Below are positions 1 to 8,004 of a stretch of 64,000 nt of DNA, piece after piece (the stretch's first letter is position 1; the number at the start of each line of letters is the position of its first letter). The stretch is from Flexilinea flocculi (GTDB taxonomy: Bacteria > Chloroflexota > Anaerolineae > Anaerolineales > Anaerolineaceae): assembly GCF_001192795.1 (NCBI RefSeq), contig NZ_DF968179.1, positions 456,311-520,310 on the forward strand, in the 5' to 3' direction. The notes under the pieces were generated by a model. The model did not search any database, had not been told where the DNA came from, and saw only the letters and a program-made list of their open reading frames with translations. Both the position numbers and the translations under genes were made by a program.

Positions 1-2308
1 GTCGCTCCCCACGTGGGGAGCGTGGATTGAAATGAGGAAATTATCGGGGATGAAGTCGCGGAAAACGGTCGCTCCCCACGTGGGGAGCGTGGATTGAAAT
101 GAAGAGTTTCTGATCAGTCTTGCCAAAGGCGATAGTCGCTCCCCACGTGGGGAGCGTGGATTGAAATTTACAATCCCTCCGTGTTATATCGAAAAAACGA
201 CGTCGCTCCCCACGTGGGGAGCGTGGATTGAAATATAACCGTTGAATATTATGAACCGGACGCTGATTGTCGCTCCCCACGTGGGGAGCGTGGATTGAAA
301 TCCCCAACCTGACATAAACTTATCTGACATTGTGACAGTCGCTCCCCACGTGGGGAGCGTGGATTGAAATGAGTGTAGGCGGACTCATTACTCTGTAATT
401 TGTGTCGCTCCCCACGTGGGGAGCGTGGATTGAAATCTGTTTGTGTGGTGATACGAACCGGTATAAGTGCGTCGCTCCCCACGTGGGGAGCGTGGATTGA
501 AATCTGAGAATGACATTAATCAATCAATCAAGAACTAGTCGCTCCCCACGTGGGGAGCGTGGATTGAAATTTCAGCAAATAATAAATTTTTGGATCCTAA
601 GCAAGTCGCTCCCCACGTGGGGAGCGTGGATTGAAATCGTCAGGTTCCTGATTGCCTGGTAAAGACAGCCGTCGCTCCCCACGTGGGGAGCGTGGATTGA
701 AATATATTACCATGCAAAAAAATTTAGCATAGCACAACGTCGCTCCCCACGTGGGGAGCGTGGATTGAAATCTTCTTCCGTTTCCCCAAAAAAGTGCATA
801 CGATAGTCGCTCCCCACGTGGGGAGCGTGGATTGAAATCGGAAGCTGAGGAAAATGGATTAATGCCTGTGGGGTCGCTCCCCACGTGGGGAGCGTGGATT
901 GAAATTCTTTAGTTGCTTCACGTACTCTGGGTCGAGGAAGTCGCTCCCCACGTGGGGAGCGTGGATTGAAATTTTGTAGTGCAATCTATAGGGTAAAAAA
1001 ATATCGTCGCTCCCCACGTGGGGAGCGTGGATTGAAATACTTTCTGTTTTTTTCTAAAATTTCGAAATATACAGTCGCTCCCCACGTGGGGAGCGTGGAT
1101 TGAAATTGTCCATTATTCCCTCCGTTTCTCTCTCTTGAGGTCGCTCCCCACGTGGGGAGCGTGGATTGAAATAGATAAGGAATTATTCTGAGCGGAAACA
1201 CTTCGGTCGCTCCCCACGTGGGGAGCGTGGATTGAAATGTATACTAATCTATACATTAATTAATTAATCAATCGTCGCTCCCCGCGTGGGGGGCGTGGAT
1301 TGAAATGCAACATGAGGATTAGTTGGCTGTATCGGTCGGGTCGCTCCCCGCGTGGGGGGCGTGGATTGAAATAGCAAAATGGATTAATGCCAGTTGAAAA
1401 AGTAGGTCGCTCCCCGCGTGGGGGGCGTGGATTGAAATAAGAGACTCAGGCACTCATTTATTGCCGCTGATAGTCGCTCCCCGCGTGGGGGGCGTGGATT
1501 GAAATCAAAAAAATCTTCATCAGAGGATTCTTCTGACGAGTCGCTCCCCGCGTGGGGGGCGTGGATTGAAATGTATACTAGCCTATACATTAATTAATCA
1601 ATCAAGTCGCTCCCCGCGTGGGGGGCGTGGATTGAAATATTTTAATTGATTAATAAATTCCAGGACTCCTGAGTCGCTCCCCGCGTGGGGGGCGTGGATT
1701 GAAATGTATCACCATGCAAACAGGAGCACTTATACCGGGTCGCTCCCCGCGTGGGGGGCGTGGATTGAAATTGAAAGCAGCGCAGGAAGGCCTCCGATGA
1801 AATACAGTCGCTCCCCACGTGGGGAGCGTGGATTGAAATATCGGTCAGCCGTTTCGCCATGATGTGCGCTCAGTCGCTCCCCACGTGGGGAGCGTGGATT
1901 GAAATTGATTGAATCGGCTCTGTTGTGAGGGTGTTTATGGTCGCTCCCCACGTGGGGAGCGTGGATTGAAATGGTTAATCCAATACCGTTTGTATCATGA
2001 CGCGTTGTCGCTCCCCGCGTGGGGAGCGTGGATTGAAATTTTGTGTATCTAATATAGCATTTACCCACATTTTGTCGCTCCCCGCGTGGGGAGTTTGGAT
2101 TGAAATGAAATCCGCTGGAGTACCGTCCTCGAGGATGATAGTCGCTCCCCGCGTGGGGAGTGTGGATTGAAATATAATGTAATCAGTCAATTCATAGTTA
2201 CTATTCAAGTCGCTCCCCGCGTGGGGAGCGTGGATTGAAATATCAATGTATTAGTCTGATTAACCCTTGCAACTTGTCGCTCCCCACGTGGGGAGCGTGG
2301 ATTGAAAT
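1..2308 (+). CRISPR. Type I-C-like CRISPR array, 35 repeats / 34 spacers, continuing off the left edge
   Basis: Thirty-five 33-nt repeats start at 1, 68, 135, 202, 269, 338, 404, 471, 538, 605, 671, 739, 806, 873, 940, 1006, 1074, 1140, 1206, 1274, 1340, 1406, 1473, 1540, 1606, 1673, 1739, 1807, 1873, 1940, 2007, 2074, 2141, 2209 and 2276; spacers are 33-36 nt. The repeat opens GTCGCTCCCC, has a palindromic centre CCCCACGTGGGG and ends GTGGATTGAAAT, as type I-C repeats do, so the crRNA 3' handle places transcription left to right. The variants with point changes (2074, 2141) sit near the right end, which fits a distal trailer there and a leader plus cas genes left of base 1. Three main repeat versions occur in blocks: ACGT/GGGGAG (1-1238, 1807-1972, 2276), GCGT/GGGGGG (1274-1771), GCGT/GGGGAG (2007-2241). 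No cas gene lies in the window. Confidence 0.98.
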
Positions 2309-4552: not shown

Positions 4553-5287
4553 TCAGATTTCTTTGGACATTGTTAAAATTCTGATCCCTTTTACTTGCGG
4601 AAATATTGCGCCTTCTTGGATGGTCGTAATTGCTGCTTCTTCATCAATTACTCTGGAACCAGAAAGAAAAGAAATTCCGTAATCGAATAATAGCGGAGTC
4701 ATCGGCGTGGAAGGTCCTAGTACCATTACAAGAGCTGAAGGTGGACAAAGCGAAAGTAAATTTTCGATGGAGTGGTTGATAAATGTTGTACCGCTGATGG
4801 CAACCACATCTGATTGCGGGATAAAATCTTTGGCTGCTTCTTCGGGAAAGTCATCTGCTTGTGGGCGTTTTTCAATGATCCAACAATTGCGGGCTATTGT
4901 TTTCATCTTTTCAATAAAGGGGAAATGCCCTACAATCGCCAGATTTTTATCAACGCAATGTTTCGCAATCACTTCTGATGCGTTGATCTCTTTCAATAGT
5001 TGCTCATTGAGATCCAATATGGAGTTGATGGCAGCGATACCTATACTGGCTTCTAAAAGATTATCCGAGAGAGACCATGTTGCCAGCTCCTGGGCACTTT
5101 TCTTGGTTAATTCTCCGACATCTTTTATCTTTACATGACCATGTTGTTCCTGTCCAACCATGGTAGATGCCAGTCCGCAATACTTGCTGGCTACCAATGT
5201 CCAATGAATCCCGATGATTACTTTTCGTACTTGTATCGGTTTGTCTGGAAGTGTATCGATTATTTCCTGAAGTAATTTCATGTTCAT
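4553..5287 (-). CDS. DUF4213/DUF364 protein (putative heavy-metal chelation domain)
   Basis: A 244-residue cytoplasmic protein matching the two-part DUF4213-DUF364 architecture. The N-terminal part includes the stretch around GIHWTLVASKYCGLA; the C-terminal Rossmann-like part contains the AISGTTFINHS and VLGPSTPMTPLLF segments typical of the family. These proteins are annotated as putative heavy-metal binding from structure; the reaction is not known. The reading frame is open back to 5407, but that would overlap the upstream radical SAM gene by 50 bp; the ATG at 5287 (or 5281, two codons on) gives the normal family length of about 245. It is the last gene of a leftward operon with a radical SAM enzyme and a CGGC-domain protein, which supports a role in metal or Fe-S/cofactor handling. 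That role is inference. Confidence 0.82.
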   Translation of the reverse strand: MNMKLLQEIIDTLPDKPIQVRKVIIGIHWTLVASKYCGLASTMVGQEQHGHVKIKDVGELTKKSAQELATWSLSDNLLEASIGIAAINSILDLNEQLLKEINASEVIAKHCVDKNLAIVGHFPFIEKMKTIARNCWIIEKRPQADDFPEEAAKDFIPQSDVVAISGTTFINHSIENLLSLCPPSALVMVLGPSTPMTPLLFDYGISFLSGSRVIDEEAAITTIQEGAIFPQVKGIRILTMSKEI

Positions 5288-5357
5288 TCTCTTGTTGAAA
5301 GTAAAATCCATTAAAAACTGATCTTGTTTAAAAGCGCGCTCTGTTTGGGCATGCTGG

Positions 5358-6311
5358 TTATTGTTCTTTTTGATTGTTTCTAAAATTATGCAAAAAGAAT
5401 TTTTCATTCCGATAGGATACGCAGCTGATCTTGCCGGAAGCCAGCAAATCTTCGACGATCTCCCACTTGTTTCCAGTGTTTATGACCATTTCTTTAAGGG
5501 CTTGTTCACGTAAAGGATGAACTGCGGTAATGCTGAGAACATCTTCTGCAAAATTCCCTGTTGAAACAAAATCTCCCACTTCCGTTTCAAAGAGCAGATC
5601 CAAAAAAGGAATTTGCTCAGCGCATATCTTTAGAAATTTTTGTAATGCATCCGGAGAAGGTGCAGTAATCCTCGTTTCTGCTGGTGGACGGGTCGGAATG
5701 GAAAGATAGGATTTGAAAGGGTGAAGGTTTAATAAAAATTCACACAACTGAGAAGCTGCTTTTTCATTGTCGTTTAATCCATCTGCCAGCATTGTTTCTG
5801 AAACAAGTTTCCCGCAAAATTTCTGTCTGAATTCAAGTATTCCGTTGAGAATATTGGCGAGAGACAAAGCGCGGTGCGGTCTGTCAATCATTCTCCATAT
5901 TTGTTCATCGATGGCGTCCACTTTTAAAGAAACCCAATCCGCTTGCAATAACTCTTCTTGCACATCAAGCCGATTAATCAGTGATGCATTCGAGATCACA
6001 GCGATTGGGATTTGAAATTGTTTAAGACTTTTTATGATATTTCCGAGATTAATGTCCAGCGTAGGTTCGCCATCGGGAACCAAAGTCAGGTAATCGATTC
6101 CCTTTCCAACCTGAGAGCACTCAAGAACCTTCTTTTCAACGTCGCAAATCACTTGATCAATCGGATAAAATTCTTTGCGTTCAATCTCCATTTTGTTTGT
6201 TCTGCCGACCTGGCAGTAAACGCAGGAATAAGAGCAGTGTTTGGCTGGAATATGGTTGATTCCCAAACTGTAACCCAGACGCCGGGAAGGGACCGGACCA
6301 AATGCGATCAT
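5358..6311 (-). CDS. Radical SAM protein, COG0731-like
   Basis: A 317-residue enzyme with the radical SAM cluster motif CX3CX2C at Cys26, Cys30 and Cys33 (CSYSCVYC). The N-terminus GPVPSRRLGYSLGIN and the SAM-binding DGEPTLD segment are hallmarks of the group often annotated as wyosine-synthase-like (COG0731). Bacterial members do not make wyosine and their substrates are unknown. The start is ATG at 6311 with GGGAG four bases upstream. It begins 9 bp after the CGGC-domain gene ends and is followed by the DUF364 gene, so all three are probably co-transcribed. The partners suggest a maturation or metal-related reaction rather than tRNA modification; this is inference. Confidence 0.88.
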   Translation of the reverse strand: MIAFGPVPSRRLGYSLGINHIPAKHCSYSCVYCQVGRTNKMEIERKEFYPIDQVICDVEKKVLECSQVGKGIDYLTLVPDGEPTLDINLGNIIKSLKQFQIPIAVISNASLINRLDVQEELLQADWVSLKVDAIDEQIWRMIDRPHRALSLANILNGILEFRQKFCGKLVSETMLADGLNDNEKAASQLCEFLLNLHPFKSYLSIPTRPPAETRITAPSPDALQKFLKICAEQIPFLDLLFETEVGDFVSTGNFAEDVLSITAVHPLREQALKEMVINTGNKWEIVEDLLASGKISCVSYRNEKFFLHNFRNNQKEQ

Positions 6312-6320
6312 TTTTCTCCC

Positions 6321-6767
6321 TTAGTTATAGGCTTTTCTGGTTGGTTCATCAGCGATTGAAGCTGAAAGGCGTGCTTCCCATTCAGGTCCTTTCCACGTTC
6401 CAAGTTTCGTATGTAAATCCATATATTTTTGGGGGACCGGATGGGTTCCAAATATAACTTTTACTCCGTATTTTGTCTCCAGCAGACTTTTAAATGTATC
6501 CATATATGGGCAGGGCGGATATCCCACCAGCAATCCAGTGGCCAGGTGGATGGTCTGAACTCCATTTTTGACCATCTCTTCTCCGGTATATTCAATATTT
6601 CCTCCAGGACAGCCATTACATGTTGTGTAACCTACTAATTCAATTTCTTTATCAGAATATATGCTGAAAGCGCCTTCCCGATTTCGCATGGCTCTCAAAC
6701 ACTTGCCGCCAGCACAAGTGCGGTATCGATCACAAATAATGATTCCGATTTTGGTTTTTTCACTCAT
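6321..6767 (-). CDS. CGGC domain-containing protein
   Basis: A 148-residue cysteine-rich protein of the CGGC-domain family (PF08821), predicted to bind metal or an Fe-S cluster. Cysteines lie at 12, 18 and 23 (ICDRYRTCAGGKC), 50 and 53 (CNGCPGG) and 86 (PPCPY), the pattern expected for the family. The ATG at 6767 is preceded by AAAGGAGA six bases upstream, a strong ribosome site. It is the first gene of the leftward CGGC / radical SAM / DUF364 operon and is divergent from the PadR / DUF5320 operon across a 301-bp spacer. The biochemical function is unknown. Confidence 0.88.
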   Translation of the reverse strand: MSEKTKIGIIICDRYRTCAGGKCLRAMRNREGAFSIYSDKEIELVGYTTCNGCPGGNIEYTGEEMVKNGVQTIHLATGLLVGYPPCPYMDTFKSLLETKYGVKVIFGTHPVPQKYMDLHTKLGTWKGPEWEARLSASIADEPTRKAYN

Positions 6768-7006
6768 TTTAAATCTCCTTTAATTTGATCATCAAATTTT
6801 TCTTGTTTTCCTGTAGATTGATGAAAAGAGATGATCCATGTTTGCTTTTTTCAATTTTCAGGTAAGAAAATTTAAGAATTTCTGTTTTTTATTCGCCCTG
6901 TTTTGATAATGAAAAATAATCAGACAGAATCGTCCTTTTCACATTGGAATAGAATGCATCAGAAAAAAAGCAGATATATTTTAATTGAATATTCTAAAAT
7001 TGTCTA

Positions 7007-7041
7007 TTGACATTAATAGAATAGTATGCTATTCTATTAAT
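7007..7041 (+). promoter_or_regulatory. Promoter overlapped by a perfect PadR-type operator
   Basis: TTGACA (7007-7012) and TATTCT (7030-7035) are 17 bp apart. A palindrome with 13-bp perfect arms, ATTAATAGAATAG (7012-7024) and CTATTCTATTAAT (7029-7041), separated by TATG, covers the end of the -35, the spacer and the -10. A repressor bound there would block RNA polymerase, which fits autoregulation by the PadR gene that follows. The rest of the spacer (6768-7006) is AT-rich with no further site that I can define; the leftward operon starts at its other end. Confidence 0.85.
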
Positions 7042-7068
7042 GCGAATATAAAAAAGTGGAGGATATGA

Positions 7069-7455
7069 ATGATGCCAAGACATGGAAGAGGATGGGCAAT
7101 GGGGCGTGCTCAAGGTCAGGAAGATCGACATTCACCGGTAATAGGGTCCTTGTTGGAACCTGCTTTATTGATTCTTGTGAAAGGAGCGCCAAGTCACGGA
7201 TATTCGCTGTTATCCGATCTGGGAAAAATGGGATTTTCGACCATTCATCCGAGTGTTATCTACCGTACTTTACGTGGGATGGAAGATTTGGGATGGATTC
7301 AATCAGATTGGGTAACGGATCAGACACAAGGTCCGCCTCGAAGAACTTACCATTTGACAGAGAAAGGTGAAGAGGCTTTGCAATTTTGGAAACAGGAATT
7401 ATCAAGAACCAATGCGATTATTTTACAGTTGCTTGCAAAAGAGGAATCTGATTGA
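7069..7455 (+). CDS. PadR family transcriptional regulator
   Basis: A 128-residue winged-helix regulator. The HGYSLLSDL ... HPSVIYRTLRGMEDLGWI segment (about 44-84) is the PadR DNA-binding helix and wing region, followed by the RRTYHLTEKGEEAL strand-helix and a dimerization helix. The Arg/Gly-rich N-terminus (MMPRHGRGWAMGR) is longer than usual. The start is ATG at 7069 (or 7072) behind GGAGG. A palindromic operator sits directly in its promoter. It heads an operon with two DUF5320-like miniproteins; PadR proteins next to DUF5320, CGGC or NifX-like genes are familiar in anaerobes. The signal sensed is unknown. Confidence 0.92.
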   Translation: MMPRHGRGWAMGRAQGQEDRHSPVIGSLLEPALLILVKGAPSHGYSLLSDLGKMGFSTIHPSVIYRTLRGMEDLGWIQSDWVTDQTQGPPRRTYHLTEKGEEALQFWKQELSRTNAIILQLLAKEESD

Positions 7456-7467
7456 GAGGGGGGAAAA

Positions 7468-7653
7468 ATGCCCGCTAGAGATGGGACTGGACCTTTTGGT
7501 CAAAATTTTTGGACAAGCCGGGGCATGGGACATCGTGGAAGTCTTGGACCAAGACGAGGACAGATTTTTATAAAAAATCGTTTTTCACGAAAACCATTTT
7601 CCTGGTATCACAGGATTTGGTATTTGACATTCGGCCAATTTTTGAGAGGTTGA
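7468..7653 (+). CDS. DUF5320-like Gly/Arg-rich miniprotein
   Basis: A 61-residue protein beginning MPARDGTGPFGQN and continuing SRGMGHRGSLGPRRG, a variant of the MP-DGTGP-G-GP-TGRGMG opening of DUF5320 proteins. It lacks the usual Cys after RGMG, and its C-terminus (KPFSWYHRIWYLTF) is aromatic. GGGGGG lies four bases before the ATG, and the gene starts 12 bp after the padR stop. It is paralogous at the N-terminus to the next gene. Such proteins occur beside Fe-Mo-cofactor-like and Mrp ATPase genes but have no assigned function. Confidence 0.65.
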   Translation: MPARDGTGPFGQNFWTSRGMGHRGSLGPRRGQIFIKNRFSRKPFSWYHRIWYLTFGQFLRG

Positions 7654-7703
7654 TGTATCAAAACAATAGATAGGTAAAAAAAAGTAATTGAAAGGAGAAT
7701 ATT

Positions 7704-7952
7704 ATGCCTGGATTTGATGGAACTGGTCCTTTAGGGAATGGCCCTTTTGGAAGAGGAATGGGACCCTGCGGGGGAGGTACTGTAGGTCGTGGACTGGGAC
7801 GTGGTTTTTTCCGCGGCAATTTTGGCTGGGGAGCAGGTTTTTTTTCTGCAACAATGCCTGAAGCTAAAGAAGTGATGGAACAGCGAAAGAATTGGTTGGA
7901 AAACCAGTTGGCTGTAATTAAGCAAAGCTTGCAGGATATCGAAGGGAAATAG
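7704..7952 (+). CDS. DUF5320 domain-containing protein
   Basis: An 82-residue protein with a glycine-rich N-terminus (MPGFDGTGPLGNGPFGRGMG, then PCGGG) and a C-terminal amphipathic helix (EVMEQRKNWLENQLAVIKQS). This is the full DUF5320 layout: a flexible Gly/Pro head and a coiled-coil tail. The ribosome site AAAGGAGA precedes the ATG by eight bases. It is the last gene of the PadR operon and is followed by a hairpin terminator. One cysteine is retained in the GPCGGG segment. The function is unknown; the context suggests metal or redox cofactor biology. Confidence 0.8.
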   Translation: MPGFDGTGPLGNGPFGRGMGPCGGGTVGRGLGRGFFRGNFGWGAGFFSATMPEAKEVMEQRKNWLENQLAVIKQSLQDIEGK

Positions 7953-7971: not shown

Positions 7972-8004
7972 GGCAGCTCCATTACACGGAGCTGTCTATT
8001 TTTT
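7972..8004 (+). terminator. Rho-independent terminator of the PadR/DUF5320 operon
   Basis: GGCAGCTCC (7972-7980), a 7-nt loop, GGAGCTGTC (7988-7996, one G-T pair), then TATTTTTT. Confidence 0.85.

Follow-up and report, generated by a model that had tools for sequence, protein, structure and literature searches.

Divergent CGGC and PadR genes of Flexilinea flocculi as the probable outer arms of an ORP-like metal-sulfur-cluster gene cluster

The orange protein (ORP) complex of Desulfovibrio vulgaris Hildenborough, encoded by two divergent operons, includes Orp3 and Orp4, each bearing two 4Fe-4S motifs, Orp8, a homologue of Mo-Cu sulfide cluster proteins, and the Fe-S carrier Orp9 (MrpORP), according to the accessible part of PMC6345978. 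The accessible parts of PMC3897727 and PMC4641369 give the sigma-54 regulator DVU2106 as the regulator of these operons. A further point of comparison is Dhaf4260, a DUF364 protein (3l5o) for which heavy-metal chelation has been proposed and which has PadR among its associated regulators (PMC2954201, in part). How ORP-like NifX/MinD proteins of anaerobes are supplied with their metal centres is described as mostly open in the portion of PMC6345978 available. Here we analyze a six-gene locus with CGGC, radical SAM, DUF364, PadR and DUF5320 genes in the anaerolineal bacterium Flexilinea flocculi. It lies in a stretch of 64,000 nucleotides of contig NZ_DF968179.1 (positions 456,311 to 520,310), which is called the window below and supplies all coordinates unless another locus is named. 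We read these six genes as the probable flanking arms, one on each side, of an ORP-like metal-sulfur-cluster gene cluster that probably lost its core here; they may serve in trans a core set encoded on another contig (C3) of the same genome.

The two arms and the cluster that they flank in relatives

The locus comprises the following features:

4553..5287 (open frame up to 5407), minus strand: DUF4213/DUF364 gene, assigned by Pfam, solved relatives and a counterpart in locus L116
5358..6311, minus strand: radical SAM gene with a CxxxCxxC motif (Pfam Radical_SAM PF04055, 49.7 bits, cut-off 29.5)
6321..6767, minus strand: CGGC gene (Pfam PF08821, 102.7 bits, cut-off 27)
6768..7068: divergent spacer of about 300 bp, the site of the core genes in relatives
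7069..7455, plus strand: gene of a PadR-family regulator (Pfam PF03551, 59.8 bits, cut-off 27)
7468..7653, plus strand: first miniprotein, DUF5320-like, 61 residues, assigned by its position behind padR and by sequence likeness
7704..7952, plus strand: DUF5320 miniprotein (Pfam PF17253, 45.3 bits, cut-off 27)
7972..7996, plus strand: terminator-like hairpin 3' of the DUF5320 gene

Reading frames and Pfam agree with a first-pass annotation of the window that two gene sets diverge from one spacer. CGGC, DUF5320, the radical SAM protein and PadR were searched for in 61 genomes, namely that of F. flocculi and 60 relatives (G and L handles denote genomes and loci). Of the 18 genomes with DUF5320 (E 0.001), 12 have PadR and DUF5320 genes as same-strand neighbours no more than about 0.5 kb apart, and many of these pairs are surrounded by a larger ORP-like gene cluster. 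Its core comprises NifX, two MinD/ferredoxin ATPases, MIP18, Mrp, a molybdenum hydroxylase and often a regulator that joins helix-turn-helix (HTH), cupin and NifX domains. Pfam identified example core proteins as two CbiA/ParA ATPases, each with 4Fe-4S motifs, FeS_assembly_P (MIP18) and Nitro_FeMo-Co (NifX), and further examples as a Mrp-type NUBPL ATPase, a molybdopterin-binding hydroxylase, TrmO, a metallo-beta-lactamase fold (MBL), ZIP, an ARMT1-like protein and a peptide deformylase. The layout that best matches the window is L116, from a Leptolinea metagenome-assembled genome, where DUF5320-DUF5320-PadR stands opposite NifX-NifX-MinD-MinD-MIP18-CGGC-radical SAM-DUF364-TrmO. L104, L105, L111, L106/G019 and L131/G018 resemble it minus some tail genes, which are absent or lie past the end of the sequence; in L104 and L105, DUF5320-PadR faces HTH-cupin-NifX, NifX, MinD, MinD, MIP18, Mrp, molybdenum hydroxylase, CGGC and radical SAM, where the sequence ends. 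Both arms thus flank the core in L104, L105, L111 and L116, and likewise in G018/L131 and G019/L106, where the radical SAM gene is not beside CGGC. L106 and G019, L131 and G018, L135 and G023, and L115 and G017 were treated as the same loci and not as separate evidence; in the PadR tree, L104 and L105 almost duplicate each other. The first-pass annotation had regarded the two sets as a compact system linked to metals or Fe-S centres. The arms do belong together in other genomes, where they flank one cluster, and the metal or Fe-S theme is supported, but the idea of a stand-alone system falls, the arms belonging to a larger cluster whose core is missing in the window.

The only MinD pair of the F. 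flocculi genome lies on contig C3 (L094), in the arrangement DUF5320-DUF134-NifX-MinD-MinD-MBL-Mrp-NifX. Similar sets occur in G010 and G009, the DUF5320-like protein of G009 being matched by a custom profile only and not by Pfam. Co-occurrence of CGGC with a MinD pair was observed throughout: among the 61 genomes CGGC is present in 7 and the pair in 15, and all 7 CGGC genomes have the pair (hypergeometric P of about 1.5e-5, which assumes independent genomes although these are related). In 301 genomes of the phylum the numbers are 3 and 16, again with the pair in 3 of 3. Together the samples hold eight different CGGC genomes (G000 and G023 being common to both), all eight with the pair, which is on a contig separate from CGGC in G000, G017, G023 and G255. 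A wider survey covered the best 80 of at least 542 confirmed CGGC relatives from species genomes, those most like the Chloroflexota query. Within 5 kb of CGGC, these 80 loci contain MinD (32), radical SAM (27), NifX (23), MIP18 (21), Mrp (15), MBL (13), DUF89/ARMT1 (11), TrmO (10), DUF364 (5), DUF5320 (5) and PadR (4), many contigs ending early; in 11 of them a radical SAM gene on the same strand follows less than 400 bp downstream of CGGC. The co-occurrence of CGGC with the MinD pair is tighter than their linkage.

Several side observations concern the same neighbourhoods. HTH, cupin and NifX (Nitro_FeMo-Co) are joined in one chain at L084:13260-14255, L092:3688-4737, L104:2290-3339 and L131:2843-3892, three of which head the core operon, and such regulators could sense a metal-sulfur cluster directly. 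Varying sets of peptide deformylase, a ZIP transporter, an alanine-racemase-N protein (YggS-like by our reading) and molybdenum hydroxylase lie beside CGGC or its companions in L085, L091, L107, L112 and L131.

The most likely reading is that the arms form an accessory metal-cluster module that acts in trans with a core located elsewhere in the genome. In this scenario, NifX, the paired MinD-ferredoxin ATPases and Mrp would have been lost from between the arms in the lineage of the window. PadR would bind a palindrome lying on its own -35/-10 elements and limit the expression of padR and of the two DUF5320-type miniproteins. In the CGGC protein, invariant cysteines and histidines located along the rim of a Rossmann-like fold would hold a metal or Fe-S centre; judging from their families and co-location, the radical SAM and DUF364 proteins may help to make or load it. 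The arms would then serve the NifX-MinD-MinD-Mrp set of contig C3 in trans.

Arm proteins and the divergent spacer

Six cysteines and three histidines (C12, C18, C23, C50, C53, C86, H74, H109 and H119) are invariant over 41 CGGC sequences, consisting of the window and 40 of 80 fetched sequences, with L182 (stop), L155 and L167 left out; the window likewise has every invariant residue of a 7-row alignment. An AlphaFold2 model of the protein has a predicted local distance difference test (pLDDT) score of 86, the loop 53-55 being the least sure (below 50), and places the invariant residues where the strands of a Rossmann-like sheet end: C12 follows strand 5-11, C50 follows 42-49, H74 lies within 72-76 and H109 follows 103-106. 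These residues may therefore form a metal or Fe-S site. Comparison of the model with known folds gave no confident match, with a best Foldseek E of 7.5e-3 and a best Z of 7.2, with Argonaute MID domains, which is below the tool's mark of 8, and no relative was found by sequence among solved chains. A plasmid search with CGGC returned one match, 31% identical.

The CxxxCxxC motif of the radical SAM protein is seen directly in the translation, and proteins 52-66% identical to it are present in G014, G025 and G051; no relative was found among solved chains at E 0.01. Two assignments were tried and rejected, TYW1 (TIGR03972, 25.5 bits against a cut-off of 317.95) and prokaryotic viperin (NF038283, 44.7 bits against 180). 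The frame at 4553-5407 scores 66.8 bits for DUF4213 (cut-off 23.5) and 124.3 bits for DUF364 (PF04016, cut-off 23); judged against relatives, the start of the gene is probably nearer to 5287 than to 5407, where the frame overlaps the radical SAM gene. The solved relatives of its product are 3l5o (E 6.9e-17) and 3npg, and in L116 a DUF364-type protein is the second gene past CGGC, as in the window.

On the other side, proteins 52-69% identical to PadR occur at eight places in seven genomes, most of which use the second ATG, at 7072 in the window, as the start. Both miniproteins had been annotated as DUF5320; this holds for the second, whereas the first stays below the cut-off of PF17253 (17.9 against 27 bits), yet is related to it by place and sequence. 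It is taken as a real gene because a similar miniprotein trails padR by 12 to 23 nt in G018, G019, L104 and L116. With L083:3909-4115 and L116:5789-5995, it also appears as a distinct short family, the relatives of which end in a WG-RVWN-TFGRLF-RRR-like sequence.

The spacer carries these candidate control elements:

7011..7042: perfect palindrome (14-4-14) overlapping the padR promoter, predicted from conservation to be the likely PadR operator
7007..7035, plus strand: putative padR promoter TTGACA-17-TATTCT with TG before the -10, with similar sequence at the same place in relatives
6990..7023: half-sites TATTCTA ... TAGAATA of the padR footprint, a single occurrence in the window
6978..7006, minus strand: possible promoter of the CGGC arm, TAGACA-17-TAAAAT, a weak match overlapping the operator

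The palindrome is one of three perfect inverted repeats in the 64 kb (arms of at least 12, loops of at most 10) and the most perfect among 12 upstream regions scanned. TATTCT stands at a constant distance in 11 of 13 padR loci, with TATTCC in the other 2. An anchored, gapless alignment of twelve padR upstream regions, which omits L111 (its first base differs), gave the majority pattern TATTCT-8-CTATTGAC-3-AA-n-AGAATAG-2-TG-n-TAT. With up to 3 mismatches allowed, the derived pattern has 9 sites in 8 of ten genomes, each directly before a close padR, including two in G020, which has two padR genes. The reversed control gave 0, G010 and G023 have none, and the more distant PadR-family genes of the ten genomes lack the site. 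Because the related motif was found only just upstream of close padR genes, the most likely target of PadR is its own gene together with those of the miniproteins.

A different element, TATAGTA, taken as the promoter element of the core, precedes padR by 128-168 bp in all nine core-adjacent loci (L104 and L105 being near-copies) and in none of the four core-less ones, the window included; it was sought as three nine-letter words and then as TATAGTA, and both gave 9 and 0. In L104 and L116, CGGC lies 50-75 bp behind the preceding gene and is unlikely to have its own promoter, so that the CGGC arm of the window would need a new one. The candidate at 6978..7006 is weak and the only one seen; the number of promoter-like sites in its region, 6, does not clearly exceed the chance expectation of 4.0 +/- 1.8. 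The first-pass suggestion of a regulator shared by both gene sets is not supported: relatives have a separate conserved element for each direction, the PadR motif was found at padR only, and the sole hint of common control is this weak minus-strand match.

Two observations stand beside these. At 6782-6798, directly ahead of the CGGC start, lies a perfect palindrome, AATTTGAT-G-ATCAAATT, possibly the site of another regulator; a weaker repeat occurs at 6902-6914. Outside the locus, window positions 1-2300 hold 23 copies, on either strand, of a 15-base repeat core, the first copies 67 bases apart; open reading frames across them translate to ISIHAPHVGSD/FNPRSPRGER, and by our reading this is a CRISPR-like array.

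Probable core loss and the rival explanations

The window falls together with the core-bearing L104 and L105 in the PadR tree (97/93) and with L103, L104, L105 and L109 in the radical SAM tree (91/77), G014 being next in the latter (88/91). Loss of the core in the window is favored because both trees place it beside core-bearing loci. Among the 13 close padR loci, 9 adjoin the core; the labels for core and no core, here as elsewhere, are our own. G032, 99% complete and without a MinD pair, is a second core-less case, with DUF364 and HTH-cupin-NifX genes beside its PadR-DUF5320 pair. Selection on the arms was gauged by the ratio of first- plus second-position to third-position codon changes unique to each gene, about 2 being expected without constraint. 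The values for the window and the compared relative are 0.68 and 0.81 for radical SAM, 1.28 and 1.20 for PadR, 1.12 and 0.92 for DUF364 and 0.85 and 0.41 for CGGC. The four larger genes look held by selection, although part of the branch may predate the core loss. None of 13 further genomes from the genus has CGGC or the radical SAM gene, a distribution compatible with transfer or repeated loss. A foreign origin was not indicated by base composition, which is uninformative (guanine-cytosine content of 40.8% in the cluster against 42.8% in the window, 21% of 3.4-kb stretches being as low or lower). In an empty-site comparison of 11 window proteins with 6 genus-mates, some with short contigs, the neighbourhood of the 5'-nucleotidase yielded only that protein itself and one 27% ABC-transporter match.

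Several results weigh against a core lost from between arms that still serve one. A tblastn search of window positions 3-10 kb with core proteins found no MinD pair, no NifX and no core trace, and neither scar nor remnant. The support of 91/77 in the radical SAM tree is below the strict mark of the tree tool. Core and no-core loci are scattered over the tree of the 13 close padR loci, with 4 changes, and 500 of 500 shuffles were as low; the preference for loss over gain thus derives from parsimony, the tree by itself not separating the two. In G035, a core-less case, the longer core-element word recurs at -291 with one mismatch. Linkage is incomplete: a strict MinD-ferredoxin gene (100 bits, 8 cysteines) lies within 5 kb in 27 of the 80 surveyed CGGC loci, and in 8 of the 21 with 5 kb on both sides. 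By phylum groups, which we read from record titles, it is found in 23 of 42 Chloroflexota, 4 of 15 others and 0 of 23 Desulfobacterota-like loci, so that CGGC-MinD linkage is common in Chloroflexota but not general. The higher CGGC ratio of the window could reflect relaxed constraint, the cysteine and basic tail of the first miniprotein are gone in the window copy, and the function assigned to the arms derives from association only.

Several scenarios may explain a locus with two arms and no core. One possibility is the self-contained metal-stress or cofactor system of the first-pass annotation, in which one PadR senses metal and frees both promoters. The palindrome and half-sites do lie between both start points, and the minus-strand promoter-like match overlaps the operator. 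Nevertheless, this seems unlikely given that the PadR pattern was seen at padR only in ten genomes, that the other direction has its separate element in 9 of 9 core-adjacent loci and that relatives include the core in the unit; moreover, the upstream half-site is kept in G032, where the upstream gene runs in the same direction, and therefore belongs to padR. It is rather improbable, too, that the arms are a decaying remnant, left jobless by the core loss. The lack of a core, the altered first miniprotein and the raised CGGC ratio would fit decay, but none of the four larger genes is interrupted and all look constrained, the window has retained each CGGC residue that does not vary among the 41 sequences, and the palindrome is the most perfect of its set.

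Alternatively, the two-arm layout could be the older one, the core having been inserted between the arms in other lineages. G032, G035 and G042 have core-less PadR-DUF5320 pairs and no MinD pair at E 1e-20 (G035 being 64% complete), L108 combines CGGC-radical SAM-ZIP-DUF364-TrmO with HTH-cupin and NifX genes and no MinD-ferredoxin pair within the 20 kb examined, and the core label is scattered on the padR tree. Yet the nearest rows to the window are core-bearing in both trees and most close padR loci have the core, which makes insertion very unlikely. Core loss with service in trans thus remains the favored reading. A more specific proposal, which we advance tentatively as possible but doubtful, is that CGGC, radical SAM and DUF364 constitute a separate, movable loading module, making or carrying a special metal-sulfur centre for the ORP-like NifX/MinD complexes, that can work in trans when unlinked from its client, with PadR and the DUF5320 miniproteins as a feedback sensor. 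The comparison in any case yields partner candidates for NifX/MinD, namely CGGC, the radical SAM subgroup of the window type, DUF364 and DUF5320, together with HTH-cupin-NifX as a possible cluster sensor. Partners and core lie on different contigs in one genome, which makes them experimentally separable.

Comparison with known systems

In the literature searched, which leaves most subscription papers outside, nothing was found on the CGGC domain, alone or with radical SAM; DUF5320 appeared, by title, with other topics only, and dinitrogenase cofactor, MinD and PadR together returned only a Nanoarchaeum proteome paper. Among the matches listed for MrpORP, the orange protein complex and gene neighbourhoods, and for Nitro_FeMo-Co with PadR and radical SAM, there was no mention of the unit.

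Among the systems compared, the C3 cluster shares the DUF5320 miniprotein with the window; it differs in having no PadR, CGGC, radical SAM or DUF364 in 16 kb, with DUF134 at the place of PadR. Dhaf4260 is like the DUF364 protein of the window by the 3l5o match, but its context in the accessible part of PMC2954201 is metal transport, without NifX, MinD or CGGC. The core of the relatives resembles the ORP complex, as far as the available part of PMC6345978 describes it, in its paired P-loop ATPases (Orp3 and Orp4), NifX-type protein (Orp8), Mrp/NBP35 protein (Orp9) and two divergent operons; that part does not mention CGGC, radical SAM or DUF364 as ORP proteins. The window shares with ORP the layout of two divergent gene sets from one spacer, but has neither an adjacent MinD-ferredoxin pair nor a NifX/ORP-type protein, and PadR (in several relatives also HTH-cupin-NifX) takes the place of the sigma-54 regulator DVU2106 known from the partial ORP sources. 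The window is thus not counted among the ORP-type clusters, but looks like the accessory parts of the ORP-like clusters of Chloroflexota.

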